Source of the DNA: Halegenticoccus soli
Lineage (GTDB): Archaea > Halobacteriota > Halobacteria > Halobacteriales > Haloferacaceae
Direction: 5' to 3'
NCBI RefSeq assembly: GCF_002844195.1
Contig: NZ_PEND01000001.1
Location: 744,001 to 808,000 of the forward strand
DNA: 64,000 nucleotides
Positions 17,495 to 52,429 of the stretch are shown piece after piece (the first letter of the stretch is position 1; every line of letters begins with the position of its first letter). The notes beneath the pieces were generated by a model, which worked only from the letters and a program-made list of their open reading frames with translations, was not told the DNA's origin and did not search any database. The translations under genes were made by a program, and so were the position numbers.

Positions 17495-18529
17495 ATGGAC
17501 GACATCAGCTTCGCGGTTCTCGGCACCGGCGGCATCGGACGACGAACGCTCGACATCTCGCGTCACAAGGAGGGACTCACTCCCGTCGCCGCGTGCGACC
17601 GTCGCGGCGTCGCGATCGACCCCGAGGGGCTCGACGTCGACGAGCTCCTCGCGGCGACGGGAGGCGACGCGGCGGGCGACGACGCCCCGGCGACGGCGGA
17701 CGGGGGAACGGCGGTCGAGCGGCGCGGCCTCGCCGCGTCGGCGCAGGCGGAATCGACGGACGCGCCGATCGACGACGTGATCGCCGCGTCGGACGAGATC
17801 GACGCCGTGCTTCTCGCCCTGCCGAACCTCGAACACGACTTCATCCCGCGCGTGGCTGACCGCTTCGTCGACGCGGGCTACGAGGGGGTCGTCGTGGACG
17901 TGCTGAAGCGTTCGCGCGTGATCGGCATGCTCGACGAGCGCGCGGACGCCTTCGAGGGGTCGGGGATCACGTTCGTCTGCGGCGCGGGCGCGACGCCCGG
18001 GTTCCTGACCGGCGCGGCGGCGCTCGCCGCCCAGTCGTTCATCGAGGTCGAGTCGGTGGAGATCTGGTGGGGGGTGGGCCTGAAGTCCGGGTACGAGGAC
18101 AACCGCGGCACCGTCCGCGAGGACGTCGCCCACCTCGATGGGTACGACCTCGACGCCGTCCGCGATCTCACCGACGAGGAGATCGAGGAGATAATCGACG
18201 CCCGCGGCGGCGTCCTGGAGTTCCGCGACATGGAGCACGCCGACGACGTGCTGCTCGAACGGGCGGGCATCTGCGACGCGGCGGACGTCACCGTCGGCGG
18301 GGTCCTCGACGTTCGAAGCGACGAGAAGCCGACGACGACGACGGTCAGGGTGACGGGGCGGACGTTCGACGGCGAGACGGGGACGAACACCTTCGAACTG
18401 GACGACGCCACGAGCATGGCCGCGAACGTCAACGGGCCGGCGCTCGGCTACCTGAAGGCCGCGGTCCGCCGCAACCGCGCCGGCGAGTACGGCGTGTTCG
18501 GCCCGGCGGAGCTCATGCCCGGATTCTGA
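17495..18529 (+). CDS. bioU: Probable BioU: (S)-8-amino-7-oxononanoate-to-DAPA suicide enzyme
   Basis: A 344-residue NAD(P)-binding Rossmann protein (VLGTGGIGRRTLDI at 8-21) of the saccharopine dehydrogenase-like type. It sits between bioB and bioF where BioA or another amino donor step is needed, and no bioA is in the cluster. Known BioU (first described in cyanobacteria) uses its own lysine as amino donor for 7-keto-8-aminopelargonate and works once. Here VVVDVLKRSRVIGML contains Lys138, the natural candidate; an insertion at about 54-85 accounts for the shift from the cyanobacterial Lys124. It starts 3 bp after bioB. Without the context one would call it a dehydrogenase-like protein. Assignment rests on fold, lysine and operon logic. 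Confidence 0.75.
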   Translation: MDDISFAVLGTGGIGRRTLDISRHKEGLTPVAACDRRGVAIDPEGLDVDELLAATGGDAAGDDAPATADGGTAVERRGLAASAQAESTDAPIDDVIAASDEIDAVLLALPNLEHDFIPRVADRFVDAGYEGVVVDVLKRSRVIGMLDERADAFEGSGITFVCGAGATPGFLTGAAALAAQSFIEVESVEIWWGVGLKSGYEDNRGTVREDVAHLDGYDLDAVRDLTDEEIEEIIDARGGVLEFRDMEHADDVLLERAGICDAADVTVGGVLDVRSDEKPTTTTVRVTGRTFDGETGTNTFELDDATSMAANVNGPALGYLKAAVRRNRAGEYGVFGPAELMPGF

Positions 18530-21942: not shown

Positions 21943-22293
21943 ATGGCGCTCCAACAGATATCCCACCTGACCGACGAGATGGCGAACTGCATCGACAACT
22001 GCTTCGAGGCCGCCCAGGCGTGCGAGTGGTGCGCCGACGAGTGCATCGGCCAGGGCGAAGAGATGGCCCGGTGCGCGCGCCTCTGCCGCGACGTGGCGGA
22101 TCTCACGACGAAGCACGCCCGGTTCATGGCGCGGAACTCGAACTACAGCCCCGTTCTCGCGGAGGCCTGCGCGGGGGCCTGCGAGGAGTGCGCCGACGAG
22201 TGCGAACAGCACGACGACGAGCACTGTCAGGTCTGTGCGGACGTGCTCCGCGACTGCGCGGAGAGCTGCCGCACGATGATGCAGGAGGCGTAG
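21943..22293 (+). CDS. Cys-rich four-helix copper-storage-like protein (Csp3/DUF326 type)
   Basis: A 116-residue cytosolic protein with 15 Cys, many as CxxxC within predicted helices (CEWCADEC, CARLC, CAGACEECADEC, CQVCADVLRDCAESC). There is no signal peptide, as expected for Csp3-type storage proteins that line the inside of a four-helix bundle with Cys and hold many Cu(I) ions. I start at ATG 21943 (MALQQISHLTDEM) rather than an in-frame TTG three codons earlier. Function is inferred from the family pattern; the same fold is found in proteins annotated as four-helix bundle copper-binding protein. It stands alone, 230 bp before an M14 peptidase. Confidence 0.85.
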   Translation: MALQQISHLTDEMANCIDNCFEAAQACEWCADECIGQGEEMARCARLCRDVADLTTKHARFMARNSNYSPVLAEACAGACEECADECEQHDDEHCQVCADVLRDCAESCRTMMQEA

Positions 22294-40903: not shown

Positions 40904-42169
40904 CTACTTCTCGTTTACTTCGAGCACCTTGCCGGCCGCGATGGTCTGGCCCATGTCGCGGATGGCGAAGCTGCCCAGCTCGGGGATCTCGCCCGACGGC
41001 TCGATGCTCAGCGGCTTCTGCGGGCGCAGCGTGACGACGGCGGCGTCGCCGGCCTTGATGAAGTCCGGGCCCTCCTCTGCGACCTCGCCCGTCTTGGGGT
41101 CGAGCTTCTGGTCGAGGGACTCGAACGTGCAGGCGACCTGCGCGGTGTGGGCGTGGATCACCGGCGTGTAGCCGGCGGTGATGACCGAGGGGTGCTGCAT
41201 GACGACGATCTGGGCCTTGAACGTCTCCGCCACCTTCGGCGGGTCGTCGGCCGGCCCCGCCACGTCGCCGCGGCGGATGTCGTTCTTGCCGACGCCGCGG
41301 ACGTTGAACCCGACGTTGTCGCCCGGCTCCGCGCGGTCGACCTCCTCGTGGTGCATCTCGATCGTCTTCACCTCGCCGGAGACGTTCGACGGCTGGAAGG
41401 AGACGGACATCCCCCGCTCCAGCACGCCCGTCTCGACGCGGCCGACGGGGACGGTGCCGATGCCGGAGATGGTGTAGACGTCCTGGATCGGCAGGCGCAG
41501 CGGCGCGTCCGTCGGCGGCTGCGGCTCCGGCAGGTTGTTCAGCGCTTCGAGGACCGTCGGGCCGTCGAACCAGGACATGTTGTCCGAGTGACCGGAGACG
41601 TTGTCCCCCTCGAAGGCGGAGATGGGGATGAACCGCGCGTCGTCCGTGTCGAAGCGCACCTGCTTCAGGAGCTTCTTCACGTCGTCGCGGACCTCCTCGT
41701 ACCGGCTCTGGTCGTAGTCGACGACGTCCATCTTGTTGACCGCGACGATGAGCGTCTCGATGCCGAGGGTGCGGGCGAGGAACACGTGCTCGCGGGTCTG
41801 CGGGGCGACGCCGTCGTCGGCCGCGACGACGAGCACGGCGTGGTCCGCCTGGCTCGCGCCCGTGATCATGTTCTTCACGAAGTCGCGGTGGCCGGGCGTG
41901 TCCACGATCGTGAAGTAGTACTTGTCCGTGTCGAACCGCTGGTGGGCGATGTCGATGGTGACGCCGCGCTCGCGCTCCTCGGCGAGGTTGTCCATCACGT
42001 AGGCGAACTCGAAGCCGCCCTTACCCTTCTCTTCGGCTTCCTCGCGGTACTGCTCGATTACGTGCTCGGGGACGCTCCCCGTCTCGAAGAGGAGTCGGCC
42101 CACGAGCGTACTCTTGCCGTGGTCGACGTGGCCGATGATGGCCAGGTTCTGGTGTGGTTTATCAGCCAT
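40904..42169 (-). CDS. tuf: Translation elongation factor 1-alpha (EF-1A)
   Basis: A 421-residue GTPase that delivers aminoacyl-tRNA to the ribosome. G1 is GHVDHGKS (13-20), G3 DTPGH, G4 NKMD; switch region and domains II-III are complete ([20 protein letters not shown]-like end). Length and motifs are those of haloarchaeal EF-1A. In many archaea rps10 follows this gene, but here the next gene downstream is on the other strand. A hairpin (42180-42193) lies 10 nt before the start codon. Confidence 0.97.
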
Positions 42170-42883: not shown

Positions 42884-45800
42884 ATGAGTAGCGAAGACAA
42901 ACCCCAGCCGACGGGAGAGCCAAGCCGGCGCGACGTCCTGAAAGGGGGCGGCGCTCTCGGCGCGGGCGCGCTTCTCGCGAACGCCGGGATCAACCCGAAC
43001 GAACCGTTCACCGAGCACGGGGAGGTGCCGGACGAACCCGACGAGGGCGGACGGGTCCGTCACTTCACCGTCCACGCGATCGAAGTCGACCTCGTCTTCA
43101 ACCGCTACGGGCTCCACCAACCGAACGCCGCGGTGTACGTCCTCGAGGAGAATCTCGACGAGGCGCGCGCGGCGTCGGGCGTGGTCCCGTGCGGGAACAG
43201 GCTCGTCGACGACGGGCCGTTTTGCGACGACCGTCCGAAACGCCGCGACGACCACGAGCACGCCAACGACGAGGCCCACCACCACGACGGCCGTCACGAC
43301 CACGGCGGCGACGACCACGAGCACGATCACAAACACGACCACGATCACCCGTCCGTGGACGAGGTGTGTCGCCTCGACAACGGCCTCAAGCGCGACGACG
43401 ACGTGGACACCCGCGTCCTCCAGCCGCTGGTTCTCCGCGCCAACCAGGGCGACGTCTTCGAGATCGAGTTCGTCAACCACCTCGACCGCCACGCCTCCAT
43501 CCACCAGACGTCGCTCCCCTACGAGGTCGAAGAGAGCGACGGGATGGACGTCGGGTTCAACCCGGACACCACCGCCGCGCCGGGCGAAACCGTCACCTAC
43601 CGGTGGTTCGCCGACGAGTTAGGCACCCACTTCTTCCTCGACGGCGCCAACCAGGCGGTCGACAGCGCCGACGAGCCGCCCCAGGTGGCGAACCTCCTCT
43701 CGCGCGGCCTGTTCGGTTCCGCGTGCGTGTACCCCCAGGGAACCACGACCACGGATCCGTTCACGGGTGAGCCGGATCCCTCCGGCGTCCAGGCTGACGT
43801 TCACGTGCCGGAGGATCTCACGGAGCAAGCCACCCTGGAGGGCTTCGTCCCCGGCGTCGACTACCGGGAGGTTCTCATCCACTACCACACTCCGGAGGGC
43901 ATCGTGACCGCCGAAGGCGATCAGCTCACCTTCCCGGAGAGCGACGTGCCGCAGACGGTCCACGCGATCAACTACCGCGCGGATCCGACCGGCAACCGAA
44001 TCGATCCGGACCGGTGTCCGGCCTGCGACTCCTCGGAGTTCTACAGCTCGTGGATCCACGGCGACCCCGGCGGCGGCGACAACGTCTACCCGGCGTACCT
44101 CGGCGACCCAATCAAGGTCACCGCCATCGGCGCATCCTTCGAGGAGAATCACGTCCACCACCTCCACGGCCACCGCTGGAAGAAGGAACCGACGAACCGC
44201 AATTCGGACACGGTCGACTCGCAGACCGTCGGACTGGGCGCCGTGTACGAGGCGCCATTCGTCGCCGCGTTCGGCTCGCCGCGCGGCGGGATCCAGGACT
44301 TCCAGACGGTCCGGCCGAACATGACGTTCGAGGAGGCGTTCCAGGTCGGTGCCGGCGGCGCACACGGCAGCGCGGGGGACTACCTCTTCCACTGCCACCT
44401 CTTCCCGCACTACGGCGAGGGGATGTGGGGAATGATGCGCGTCTTCGACAAGGAGCGGAAGGGGCTGAAGAAGCTGCGGACCAACGAGCCGCCGATCCCC
44501 GCGGATTCGGACATTCCGGGCTTCCCGGAGTTCATCCCCGGCGAGTTCGAGCTCGGCCCGCCGTTCCCGCCCTACGGGGCCGCCGGGCTCGAAGGCTTCC
44601 GCGATCCCACCCCGGAGGAGGAAGCGGCGCTGACCCGCAAGGGACCGATCCTCCCCGGCGCGCCGTACACCGACCCGTGCGACCCCGACATCGACGTTCC
44701 GGGGTTCGACACGCCGGATGTCGAGATCGAGGGCGAAAAGCGCGAGTACACGATCGTCGCGCTGCGCGCCGACGTCGTCTACAACGACGCAGGCCACCAC
44801 GACCCGGAGGGCCGAGTGTTTGTCCTCGAAGAGGACGCCGAGGCCGTCAGGTGCGGCGACATGAACCCCGAGCCGCTGGTGATCCGGGCGAACGTCGGCG
44901 ACTGCGTCGAGATCACGCTCAAAAACGAGATCGAAGAGGACGTGATTCCCGTCCCGACCGTCGGCGGACCGGACCAGTCGGGCGGGAAGTCGAACCACAT
45001 CCACTTCGTCTCCTACGACGTGCTCGGGTCGGACTCGCTCGCGACCGGCTTCAACTACAACCAGCAGTCGCTGCCCGACCAGCCGATAACGTTCAGGTGG
45101 TTCCCGGACGAGGAAGGGACGATCTTCTTCCACGACCACATCACCGGCGTGGAAAACGTGATGAACGGGACGTTCTGTTCGCTCATCGTCGAACCGCCGA
45201 ACTCCGAGTGGCTCGACCCCCACACGGGCGAGCCGATCCGCAGCGGGACGCAGGCGATCATCAGCCAGCCGGAGGGCGAGGACTTCCGCGAGTTCGCGCT
45301 CGCCTACCACGACTTCGCGCAGTTGGTCGACCGCGACGGCGAGTTCGTCAACCCCGACGAGGAGCACAACGAGAACGCGGGGGTGATGGCGATCAACTAC
45401 CGCAACACACCCATGTACATCCGCGAGGGGGCCGATCCGGCGTACGTCCACTCGTCGTTCGTCCACGGCGACCCGTCGACGCCCATCCTCGAAGCGTACG
45501 AGAACGATCCCGTCCGATTCCGGGTGTGGCAGGGCGCCTACGAGGAGCAGCACAACTTCCACCTCCACGGTCGACGGTTCGATCCCGAGGGGTTAGACCC
45601 AGAGGAAGCGGTCACGCAGGTCATCGGTACTTCCGAGGCGTTCACTTTCGACATCCAACCCGAGCACGCGGCCTTCGAACAGCCGCCAGGCGAGCAACCG
45701 CTGAACGAGAATCCGGCGGGGCTTCCGATCCGCGACTACATGTACGGCTCGACGATCATCGACGACCTCTGGGACGGTATGTGGGGGATATACCGCGTCT

Positions 45801-47611
45801 ACGGCGCGCGGGTGGACCACCTGAAACCCCTGCCGGACCGCGGCGCGCCCGACGGGAGGATCCCGAAGAAGAAGCTCCGCGAGGCGGGCGTCTCGACCGC
45901 CTTCCTCGACCTCGAAAAGAAGGGCCACAAGGCGAAGTTGCTGTACGACGAGGACGACAACCGGGCGTTCCCGCCGGACAAGGACGCCCGCCAGAACGAG
46001 AACATTCCGGGGAGTCCGCCGCCGCGCGCCCCGTCGCCCGGCCAACCGTGTCCCCAGGAAGCGCCGGACCGCGTGTTCGACGTCACCGCGTTCCAGACGA
46101 CCATCGAGTACAACGAGTACGGCGATCAGGATCAGTTCGGGATCGTCTTCGCGATGGACGACCACGTCGAAGACATCAAAGCGGGACGGCGCGAGCTCAC
46201 GCCGCTCACGCTCTGGGTGAACGAGGGCGACTGCATCGAGATCAATCTCACGAACGGCCTCGATCCGGACGAGCTCGACGACGACCACGCCCACCCCCAG
46301 ATGCGGACGAAAGAGGAGAACCTGGGGATCGAGCCGGAACGGTCGAACCGCATTTCGTTGCACGCGACACGCATCGGCTATAACGTCCTCGGTTCGGACG
46401 GGACGACGGTCGGGTTCAACTGGGATCAGACGATCCCGCCCGGTGAGACGATCACCTACCGGTACCTCGCCGACGAACCGATCGGTACGGTCACCATGTG
46501 GGACGAAGCCGACATCCGCAACAACCGTCACCACGGTGCGTACGGTCGACTCCTCGTCCAGGAGGACGGCGTCGAGTTCGTCGACGGCAGCACCGGCGAA
46601 CCGATCGTCCAGGGGTTAGAAGAGGCGTGCATGATCAAGAACCCCGACGGCGCCGACCGGCGGGAGTTCGCGCTCGCGTTCGCGGATGCGCAGTTCATCC
46701 TCAACGCCGACGATCCGGACGACTGCGTCGTGCCGCCCGGGTTCGACGAAGACGAGGTCGACCCCGACGCGCCGTGCAACCAGATCCCGGACGATCCGGA
46801 GGATCAGGGGTACGTCGGTATCAACTACCGGGCCGAGCCGTTCATCCGCCGGTTCGAGAACGACCCGGACCAGTGGCAGGTGTACTCCTCGGAGATACAC
46901 GGCGATCCCGCCACGCCGGTCTTGAACGCGCTCCTCGACGATCCGGTGACGTTCCACGTCCACAAGCTGGCGGACAAGGCCAGGGGGTTGTCGTTCCACC
47001 TCGCGGCGCACCAGTGGCCCCGGACGCGACTCGTGCCGCAGTCGGAGGAAGTCGGCGTCGACGATCAGTTCACCGTCGGACGGGGCGATCAGATCATCCC
47101 GCGCGGCGGCGCGGGCGGACTGGCGGACAGCACCGGCGACCACATCTACCAGGAGCTGAAACAGCGCCGGCGGCTGGAGGCCGGCTTCTGGGGCATCTTC
47201 CGGGTCCACGAGCGGCCGGACGAGTTCCCGGAGCCCGTCCAGCCGCTCCCGGAGAAGGCCGGGAAGATGCCGCTGAGGGATCGCCCCGGCTGGAACGTCG
47301 CGTACGGGGACGTGACCGGCGACGGCACGCGCGACGTGCTGATCGGGGTTCCCGACAGCGACATCGCCGGTACGAACGCGGGGGCAGCCTACCTGTTCAA
47401 GGGGCCGAACCGGGGGCCGATCACGGACCTCCTCGACGCGGACGTGCAGATTCTCGGCGCGTCTTACGGCGATCGAACCGGAACGGGCGTCCGCATCGAA
47501 ACGCGCGACGACGGACGCAAGCACGCCGTCATCGAGACCGAGAGCCGAACGCACTGCCTCTGTAAGGAAGACCTCAGTCGGAAGGTGATACACCTGAGCG
47601 AGATGGACTGA
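42884..47611 (+). CDS. Giant Tat-exported multicopper oxidase, MnxG/ceruloplasmin-like
   Basis: A 1575-residue protein. A Tat signal (PSRRDVLKGGG, Arg15/16) starts it; a His-rich insertion lies at 124-155. Three repeated modules (about 57-525, 735-1000 and 1060-1455) each look like a pair of cupredoxin domains and share segments such as NYRxxP and HGDP. Copper motifs: H-x-H-H-x-H-x-H at 423-430 (VHHLHGH), HCH at 503-505 with His509 and Met514, HIH at 705-707, HDH at 750-752, HNFHLH at 890-895. Together these give one complete type 1 plus trinuclear set formed between modules 1 and 2; module 3 lacks most ligands. The tail (about 1467-1510; GDVTGDGTRDVLIG) resembles an FG-GAP repeat. The likely role is oxidation of a metal such as Mn(II), Fe(II) or Cu(I) at the cell surface; the substrate is inference. 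Confidence 0.85.
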   Translation: MSSEDKPQPTGEPSRRDVLKGGGALGAGALLANAGINPNEPFTEHGEVPDEPDEGGRVRHFTVHAIEVDLVFNRYGLHQPNAAVYVLEENLDEARAASGVVPCGNRLVDDGPFCDDRPKRRDDHEHANDEAHHHDGRHDHGGDDHEHDHKHDHDHPSVDEVCRLDNGLKRDDDVDTRVLQPLVLRANQGDVFEIEFVNHLDRHASIHQTSLPYEVEESDGMDVGFNPDTTAAPGETVTYRWFADELGTHFFLDGANQAVDSADEPPQVANLLSRGLFGSACVYPQGTTTTDPFTGEPDPSGVQADVHVPEDLTEQATLEGFVPGVDYREVLIHYHTPEGIVTAEGDQLTFPESDVPQTVHAINYRADPTGNRIDPDRCPACDSSEFYSSWIHGDPGGGDNVYPAYLGDPIKVTAIGASFEENHVHHLHGHRWKKEPTNRNSDTVDSQTVGLGAVYEAPFVAAFGSPRGGIQDFQTVRPNMTFEEAFQVGAGGAHGSAGDYLFHCHLFPHYGEGMWGMMRVFDKERKGLKKLRTNEPPIPADSDIPGFPEFIPGEFELGPPFPPYGAAGLEGFRDPTPEEEAALTRKGPILPGAPYTDPCDPDIDVPGFDTPDVEIEGEKREYTIVALRADVVYNDAGHHDPEGRVFVLEEDAEAVRCGDMNPEPLVIRANVGDCVEITLKNEIEEDVIPVPTVGGPDQSGGKSNHIHFVSYDVLGSDSLATGFNYNQQSLPDQPITFRWFPDEEGTIFFHDHITGVENVMNGTFCSLIVEPPNSEWLDPHTGEPIRSGTQAIISQPEGEDFREFALAYHDFAQLVDRDGEFVNPDEEHNENAGVMAINYRNTPMYIREGADPAYVHSSFVHGDPSTPILEAYENDPVRFRVWQGAYEEQHNFHLHGRRFDPEGLDPEEAVTQVIGTSEAFTFDIQPEHAAFEQPPGEQPLNENPAGLPIRDYMYGSTIIDDLWDGMWGIYRVYGARVDHLKPLPDRGAPDGRIPKKKLREAGVSTAFLDLEKKGHKAKLLYDEDDNRAFPPDKDARQNENIPGSPPPRAPSPGQPCPQEAPDRVFDVTAFQTTIEYNEYGDQDQFGIVFAMDDHVEDIKAGRRELTPLTLWVNEGDCIEINLTNGLDPDELDDDHAHPQMRTKEENLGIEPERSNRISLHATRIGYNVLGSDGTTVGFNWDQTIPPGETITYRYLADEPIGTVTMWDEADIRNNRHHGAYGRLLVQEDGVEFVDGSTGEPIVQGLEEACMIKNPDGADRREFALAFADAQFILNADDPDDCVVPPGFDEDEVDPDAPCNQIPDDPEDQGYVGINYRAEPFIRRFENDPDQWQVYSSEIHGDPATPVLNALLDDPVTFHVHKLADKARGLSFHLAAHQWPRTRLVPQSEEVGVDDQFTVGRGDQIIPRGGAGGLADSTGDHIYQELKQRRRLEAGFWGIFRVHERPDEFPEPVQPLPEKAGKMPLRDRPGWNVAYGDVTGDGTRDVLIGVPDSDIAGTNAGAAYLFKGPNRGPITDLLDADVQILGASYGDRTGTGVRIETRDDGRKHAVIETESRTHCLCKEDLSRKVIHLSEMD

Positions 47612-51110: not shown

Positions 51111-51761
51111 TTATCGGTGTCGCCCTCGCGCCCCGTCGGAGCCGCCGTCGAACTCGATCGGACAGCCGGCGACCTCCCCGCCGCGCATCCCGTCGGCGAG
51201 CCAGTAGGTCGAAAGGAGGAGGGCGACGAGCGCCGCGACGGCGAACTCGGCACCTTCGAGCGGGAGCGCTGTGAGGATCCCCGCGGCCCCGAAGAGCGAG
51301 AGCACGCCGGACAGAATCGCCGATCCGCAGGCGGCACAGCCCGCGCCGAGCGTCCCCAGGAGCACGCCCGCGGCGCTGCCGGACCCGTCCCTGACGGCGA
51401 CCCGCTCCCGGCGGAGGTGGGAGGCGAGCATCGCGACGTTGACCCCGAGGAGCGCGGCCGTCGCGAGGAGCAGCGCCTCCGCGAGCGGGCCGAACGCCGT
51501 CCCGACTATCGGGTAGAGGTTGACGAGCAGTTCGAGTCGTGCCCCGAGGGGGACGCTCCCGTTCAGCACGACGTTGAAGAGCAGTCCCGCGTTCTGCGCC
51601 AGCACGAACAGCGACAGCCCGAGAACGCCGAATCCGAGCGCCGACAGGGCGTAGGCGGGAATCGAGAGCACCAGACGGGTGGTCCGGAGGACCAGCCGCA
51701 GGTCGCGGAACCCGGTCGGCAGGTTGAGGCGGTCGGCGAGAGGCGGGGATCGGCGGCTCAT
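51111..51761 (-). CDS. Polytopic membrane protein with CxxC, linked to DsbA-like gene
   Basis: A 216-residue protein with about five membrane segments. A characteristic C-A-A-C motif lies in the segment GTLGAGCAACGSAILSGVLSLFG (about 140-162). I do not recognise the family. It overlaps the upstream DsbA-like gene by 4 bp (ATGA), so both are made together. The CxxC inside a membrane protein next to a DsbA-like thiol oxidase suggests electron transfer between them, as for DsbB/CcdA, but that is inference. Start ATG 51761; a longer frame upstream is not protein-like. Confidence 0.75.
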   Translation of the reverse strand: MSRRSPPLADRLNLPTGFRDLRLVLRTTRLVLSIPAYALSALGFGVLGLSLFVLAQNAGLLFNVVLNGSVPLGARLELLVNLYPIVGTAFGPLAEALLLATAALLGVNVAMLASHLRRERVAVRDGSGSAAGVLLGTLGAGCAACGSAILSGVLSLFGAAGILTALPLEGAEFAVAALVALLLSTYWLADGMRGGEVAGCPIEFDGGSDGARGRHR

Positions 51762-52429
51762 TCGAGTGCGTTCTCGAAGACTCGGTAGTTCTCGCTCCCC
51801 GTGATCGTCGTCACGAACTCGCCGCCTTCGAAGAGGAAGAACGTGGGCGTCCCGCCGACGCTCGCCCCCTCGACGGCGTCGAGGTCCTCGCGGACCGCGC
51901 GTTCGTGGACCCGCTCTCGGGCGTCGGAGACGACTCCCTCCGCGTCGATCGACGACTCCGACTCCAGGAACGAGCGGACCTCGTCGAACACGTTGTCCGT
52001 CGTGATCGCGTCCTGCCGCTCGTAAAATCGCGAGTTCAGCCCCCAGAACGCCGCTTCCGATCGCGCGGCCGTCGAGGCGAGCGCGTGAGCCGCCGCGGTC
52101 GCCCACTCCCGCACGTGCGGGAACGACCGGTGGACGAAGGCGGCCCGGCCCTCTTCGACGAGATTCGATTCGATCTTCGGGAACGCGTTCGACGCGAACC
52201 GCCGACAGGACGGACACGACGGGTCCTCGAAGGCGACGATGACCGCCTCCGCCTCCGCCGGATCGGGTCCGAGCGTCGGGTTGTCGTCGATGTTCGCCGC
52301 GGCGGGGTTCGAAGCGAGCGGCTCGGTCGAGTGCGACTCGCCCCCGCCGAGCGGGTTGGCGCTCCCGGCGCAGCCGGCGAGCGGCAGCGCGCTCGCCGTC
52401 GCGGCCGACAGAAACGTCCGTCGTTTCAT
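51758..52429 (-). CDS. DsbA-like thiol-disulfide oxidoreductase lipoprotein
   Basis: A 223-residue protein. Tat lipoprotein signal: MKRRTFLSAATASALPLAGC (Cys20), then a linker with Ser/Pro. The thioredoxin-fold part has the active site CPSC (Cys72/Cys75) in FEDPSCPSCRRFA, and the cis-proline motif GTPTFFLFEGG near 190-205. This is the pattern of exported DsbA-type oxidoreductases that form or isomerise disulfides in surface proteins. Coupled to the membrane protein downstream. Confidence 0.88.
   Translation of the reverse strand: MKRRTFLSAATASALPLAGCAGSANPLGGGESHSTEPLASNPAAANIDDNPTLGPDPAEAEAVIVAFEDPSCPSCRRFASNAFPKIESNLVEEGRAAFVHRSFPHVREWATAAAHALASTAARSEAAFWGLNSRFYERQDAITTDNVFDEVRSFLESESSIDAEGVVSDARERVHERAVREDLDAVEGASVGGTPTFFLFEGGEFVTTITGSENYRVFENALE

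Follow-up and report, generated by a model that had tools for sequence, protein, structure and literature searches.

A six-domain multicopper oxidase of the MnxG family in Halegenticoccus soli, a candidate for archaeal manganese oxidation

The Mnx complex of Bacillus oxidizes both Mn(II) and Mn(III), and its activity requires mnxEFG, MnxG itself being dependent on MnxE and MnxF (PMC5622069). In Pseudomonas putida GB-1, by comparison, MnxG by itself suffices, in the absence of McoA, to oxidize the whole of the Mn(II) provided (PMC11930936). The MnxG of Bacillus sp. PL-12, encoded in the mnxEFG operon, shares with the haloarchaeal protein described here the six domains, the 12 ligand positions (the deposited chain carries a mutation at H340), the placement of the trinuclear centre in domains 2 and 3 and collinear homology. 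The haloarchaeal gene differs from it in standing alone without detectable MnxE and in possessing a Tat signal, an FG-GAP tail and a His-rich loop. The P. putida MnxG, a characterised Mn oxidase, is homologous over several stretches, but the Pseudomonas proteins reach about 1900 aa against 1575 aa.

Six-domain oxidases also occur in eukaryotes. Ceruloplasmin and hephaestin have six cupredoxin domains as well, but their trinuclear centre is located between domains 1 and 6 and they contain three type 1 sites. The Chlamydomonas Fox1, according to its published description, combines six domains with a trinuclear centre at domains 2/3, like the present protein, and differs in being a eukaryotic ferroxidase (PMC3600357). 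That 2013 study placed the trinuclear centre at domains 2/3 in all the bacterial six-domain oxidases it analysed and in green-algal ferroxidases, extended this placement to archaea when discussing its results, and named Halorubrum lacusprofundi Hlac_1576 and Haloterrigena turkmenica Htur_3146 (1525 and 1476 aa) as MnxG homologues (PMC3600357). Going by the published tree listing, these two belong to the same halobacterial six-domain MnxG-like type, with a similar size class and site position. The original prediction, made from the DNA letters, had regarded such an oxidase in halophiles as new or little described. This holds for the biochemistry only: the sequences were already listed in 2013, and public records annotate such genes as multicopper oxidases. 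By title and abstract, no biochemical study of a haloarchaeal MnxG-type protein was found in the open-licence literature.

Domain order and copper sites

The window, which is the whole stretch of 64,000 nucleotides of Halegenticoccus soli DNA that was analysed, contains an open reading frame running from ATG to stop with a coding-type composition (GC3 0.90, GC2 0.42); its features are collected in Table 1. Pfam assigns three Cu-oxidase_3 and three Cu-oxidase_2 domains to the product, the families being above cutoff, and modules 1-3 are about 29-31% identical in pairwise comparison (E 1e-28 to 1e-49). The six cupredoxin domains in three repeats that had been predicted are thus confirmed, and so is the predicted Tat signal, which scores above the Pfam cutoff. 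Outside the His-rich loop, the protein has 10 HxH pairs where 1.8 are expected, a number reached in 0 of 2000 shuffles.

Table 1. Position of the oxidase gene and of its domains and copper-binding motifs in the window.
Feature	Position	Strand	Evidence and remarks
MnxG-type six-domain multicopper oxidase gene	42884..47611	+	1575 aa
Tat signal region SRRDVLK..., residues about 13-35	42920..42988	+	Pfam TAT_signal 27.1 bits, cutoff 22.7, residues 13-32
Cupredoxin domain 1, residues about 58-310, bounds approximate	43055..43813	+	Cu-oxidase_3 residues 184-252; alignment; without complete copper site
His/Asp-rich loop within domain 1, residues 124-155, 13 His	43253..43348	+	Sequence comparison
Cupredoxin domain 2, residues about 311-540, bounds approximate	43814..44503	+	Cu-oxidase_2 residues 398-521; type 1 copper and half of trinuclear centre
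HVHHLHGH: H423 type 1; H426, H428 trinuclear	44150..44173	+	Invariant, 46 aligned members
HCHLFPHYGEGM: H503, H505 trinuclear; C504, H509, M514 type 1	44390..44425	+	Alignment; H509 = MnxG residue 340
Cupredoxin domain 3, residues about 605-795, bounds approximate	44696..45268	+	Pfam and alignment to MnxG chain 9bxa_A; second trinuclear half
HIH: H705, H707 trinuclear	44996..45004	+	Invariant, 46 aligned members
HDH: H750, H752 trinuclear	45131..45139	+	Invariant, 46 aligned members
Cupredoxin domain 4, bounds approximate	45269..45838	+	Alignment: DLW in place of HCH; without complete copper site
Cupredoxin domains 5 and 6 (module 3), bounds approximate	46076..47233	+	Alignment; without complete copper site
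C-terminal tail with one FG-GAP repeat	47276..47608	+	Pfam FG-GAP 24.7 bits, cutoff 22.1

On the basis of the alignment with MnxG and of the motifs standard in multicopper oxidases, the type 1 site is assigned to domain 2 and the trinuclear histidines to domains 2 and 3 (Table 1). The complete set of eight histidines with a type 1 site that had been predicted is present, although the eight histidines amount to four HxH pairs only when HCH is taken as such a pair. None of the 12 ligands varies among the 46 aligned family members, the window protein included, which come from haloarchaea, Priestia, Sorangium, Nonomuraea, Hymenobacter and Microvirga; since these rows were chosen for carrying HCH and at least three HxH, the invariance, that of HCH above all, arises partly by selection, but the positions of the other ligands do not. 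The residues E421, D445, D499 and D751 are likewise invariant in the 46 members, Priestia MnxG among them. A conserved CxxC (C378, C381) was considered as a family feature and discarded, being present in just 16 of the 46 rows.

In the alignment, domains 4 and 6 retain traces of a site, e.g., EQHNF and DDLWDGMW, with the complete site absent, and similar traces have been described in prokaryotic six-domain oxidases (PMC3600357). Domains 1 and 6 are devoid of the His set, so the protein has no trinuclear site of the ceruloplasmin type between these domains. The trinuclear histidines are split between modules 1 and 2, unlike in ceruloplasmin, just as the original prediction had stated; what does not stand is its view of this arrangement as unusual, for it is the standard one in MnxG and in algal Fox1, as published in 2013 (PMC3600357). 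The eight histidines are predicted to cluster in space, on the basis of the alignment with the solved MnxG and of the fold match given below.

Relationship to MnxG and occurrence in haloarchaea

The protein aligns with Bacillus sp. PL-12 MnxG (PDB 9bxa_A) over its full length and collinearly across the six domains (E 2.8e-198), and its C-terminal part alone, mainly module 3, still matches this chain with E 4.6e-122. The window residue H509 aligns with residue 340 of the 9bxa chain, counted along the alignment, which is printed as Ala. The title of that entry is Mnx H340A, and Priestia MnxG has His at the equivalent position; the sole apparent ligand difference is therefore the deposited mutation and not a difference between family members. 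As judged by comparison of the sequences, the protein is truly homologous to MnxG and does not resemble it in architecture alone, so that the earlier naming of MnxG-type oxidases as the closest relatives by architecture was right about the family and understated the relationship.

Structure prediction, one of the checks proposed with the original prediction, covered residues 56-1000, i.e., four of the six domains, and used 35 sequences, with two plasmid-record rows left out. The model (pLDDT 73.9, pTM 0.79) has 9bxa_A as its top fold match in the PDB, with E 6.4e-69, a TM of 0.72 by query length and 30% identity. The next matches, venom prothrombinase, ceruloplasmin and factors V and VIII, lie far behind with a TM of about 0.45 (ceruloplasmin about 0.44). 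A second proposed check, an HMM search against MnxG, had a divided outcome: NCBIfam NF041487, the model of Pseudomonas-type MnxG, matches the protein in several separate stretches, but the score of 215.6 bits is far under the cutoff of 3100 and the protein is not assigned to that equivalog. That the window protein is an MnxG family member with its copper sites placed as described is, both parts taken jointly, practically certain.

Multicopper oxidases are generally promiscuous, and a general laccase-like activity on phenols or humic matter would be in keeping with this. Bacillus CotA, a spore-coat multicopper oxidase, is reported to oxidize Mn as well (PMC3618234). Such a role is nevertheless highly improbable for the present protein in view of its six-domain size and close homology to MnxG, and no laccase-type family model scored above its cutoff.

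Among Halobacteria, the MnxG-type family (E 1e-30 or better) was detected in 25 of 391 sampled genomes, representing 16 of 87 genera, while a sample of 393 genomes of the phylum yielded 5 matches, all of them in the order to which the host belongs. The family is also present in five haloarchaeal plasmid records, and the host genome contains a second copy on contig C14 that is 66% identical to the window protein. The haloarchaeal rows occupy one side of a fully supported branch and thus form one clade, in which the window protein is sister to that of Halomarina sp. BND7 (73% identical) and the host paralogue is positioned elsewhere. Placing this clade beside one particular bacterial branch was rejected, as the deep nodes are poorly supported (44) and long branches come together. 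In one haloarchaeal homologue (G411:C1:879416-883792), a TGA falls within the C-terminal stretch, and this is possibly a decayed copy.

Some parts of the protein are not shared across the family. A stretch of domain 1 around residues 97-176 varies freely among haloarchaeal members; the window protein has 13 His there within 32 residues, Halomarina BND7 has 39, and the other 15 haloarchaeal rows have 0-3. The His-rich loop, seen in only 2 of 17 haloarchaeal rows, was consequently rejected as a family trait. The model confidence at the loop is very low (pLDDT about 30-45), as for disorder. A single C-terminal FG-GAP repeat is found in most haloarchaeal members and is absent from Priestia and Sorangium. 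The loop and the FG-GAP tail may serve in metal capture or attachment; both features, together with the second gene copy, had been overlooked at first reading.

Partner genes, neighbourhood and substrate

In Priestia megaterium, the homologue is located directly behind two small genes matching MnxE (E 6.7e-28) and MnxF (E 9.5e-18) of 9bxa, which anchors the family comparison on a real mnxEFG locus. The genes mnxE and mnxF of the Mnx complex (MnxE3F3G) normally lie just upstream; no such pair was found for the window gene. A one-sequence search detected no MnxE in the host genome or in ten further haloarchaeal carriers of the family (a positive control matched at 7e-63), and a one-sequence search for MnxF in the host genome, run with no control, likewise gave no match; with such single-sequence queries diverged MnxE or MnxF could be missed.

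The neighbourhood shows no conserved operon, a possibility that was rejected because no neighbour is widely common to the window and the other loci, and no metal-transport gene was recognised directly beside the window oxidase. A CHRD-domain gene is situated near the MnxG-type gene in five haloarchaeal relatives (loci L038, L039, L040, L005 and L042); the two CHRD genes of the host are on contigs other than that of the window oxidase. Both host oxidase copies have, at a distance of up to about 4 kb, a member of one family of small membrane proteins, at 51111-51788 (-) of the window and 17638-18228 (-) of the paralogue locus L043; the window copy is without a Pfam match, and neither copy has an NCBIfam match. 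The gene adjoining the oxidase (40904-42169, -) encodes EF-1 alpha, and a second EF-1 alpha at G000:C2:355131-356396 is 88% identical, so that the genome has two diverged copies. Elsewhere in the window (21943-22293, +) there is a Cys-rich DUF326 protein, presumably of a kind related to copper storage proteins.

As a six-domain multicopper oxidase of the MnxG family exported via Tat, the protein would bind a reduced metal ion near the type 1 copper of domain 2, and this ion would give up its electrons. By analogy with the family, the electrons would travel via the HCH motif to the trinuclear centre between domains 2 and 3; there, with copper loading likewise assumed from the family, O2 would be reduced to water. 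A structural role is probable for domain 1 and domains 4-6, none of which has a complete copper site. Mn(II) would be the most likely physiological substrate, its oxidation taking place extracellularly; Fe(II) and Cu(I) are the alternatives. Taken as a whole, an exported MnxG-family oxidase acting most likely on Mn(II) is the best explanation and a somewhat probable one; for Mn(II) as the main substrate, considered by itself, the case is about evenly balanced, and the oxidase is a candidate in this respect. The position at the cell surface given in the original prediction is likewise putative.

To our knowledge, the eukaryotic six-domain oxidases characterised so far are all ferroxidases, and the protein could accordingly oxidize extracellular Fe(II) for iron detoxification or uptake, like Chlamydomonas Fox1 and ceruloplasmin. 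Fox1 has an equal domain 2/3 trinuclear centre (PMC3600357), so the position of the site cannot distinguish Mn from Fe, and the identity to Priestia MnxG of only about 37-41% leaves room for a change of substrate. A role as ferroxidase is unlikely even so, given that the nearest solved protein by both sequence and fold is MnxG and not ceruloplasmin and that no iron gene was recognised beside the window oxidase.

The gene context in bacteria brings in a third metal. A CopC/CopD gene adjoins the mnx locus of Priestia, the Hymenobacter and Microvirga relatives are near heavy-metal pumps, and the protein matches the CopA model TIGR01480 weakly (20.7 bits), as might be the case for a copper-tolerance oxidase acting on Cu(I) like CueO/CopA. 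We consider this very unlikely, because the cutoff of TIGR01480 (478.95) is far above the score obtained and a copper pump is not recurrent beside the haloarchaeal genes. The oxidation of Mn(II) is the preferred reading, and what counts against it is that MnxE and MnxF, on which Bacillus MnxG depends, were not found in the genomes searched for them, that the identity to Priestia MnxG is as low as stated above, that no metal-transport gene was recognised next to the gene and that Fox1 provides a ferroxidase precedent.

Possible implications for manganese oxidation in brines

The protein is ordinary as a family member and not a new kind of protein, and it is a good candidate for archaeal Mn oxidation. 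A broader proposal, which we regard as tentative and rather doubtful, is that the haloarchaeal stand-alone branch of MnxG oxidizes Mn(II) without MnxE/MnxF and adds an FG-GAP tail and, in the lineage of the window protein, a His-rich metal-gathering loop; this would possibly make it the first enzyme of an archaeon with demonstrated Mn(II) oxidation. The patchy distribution of the family, which is carried partly on plasmids, allows carriers to be compared with close relatives lacking the gene. A partner-free relative of MnxG, if this is true, would allow the oxidation of Mn from +2 to +4 by one multicopper oxidase to be studied in a system made up of a single protein. If haloarchaeal members do oxidize Mn(II), the formation of manganese minerals in brines would have an archaeal enzyme.
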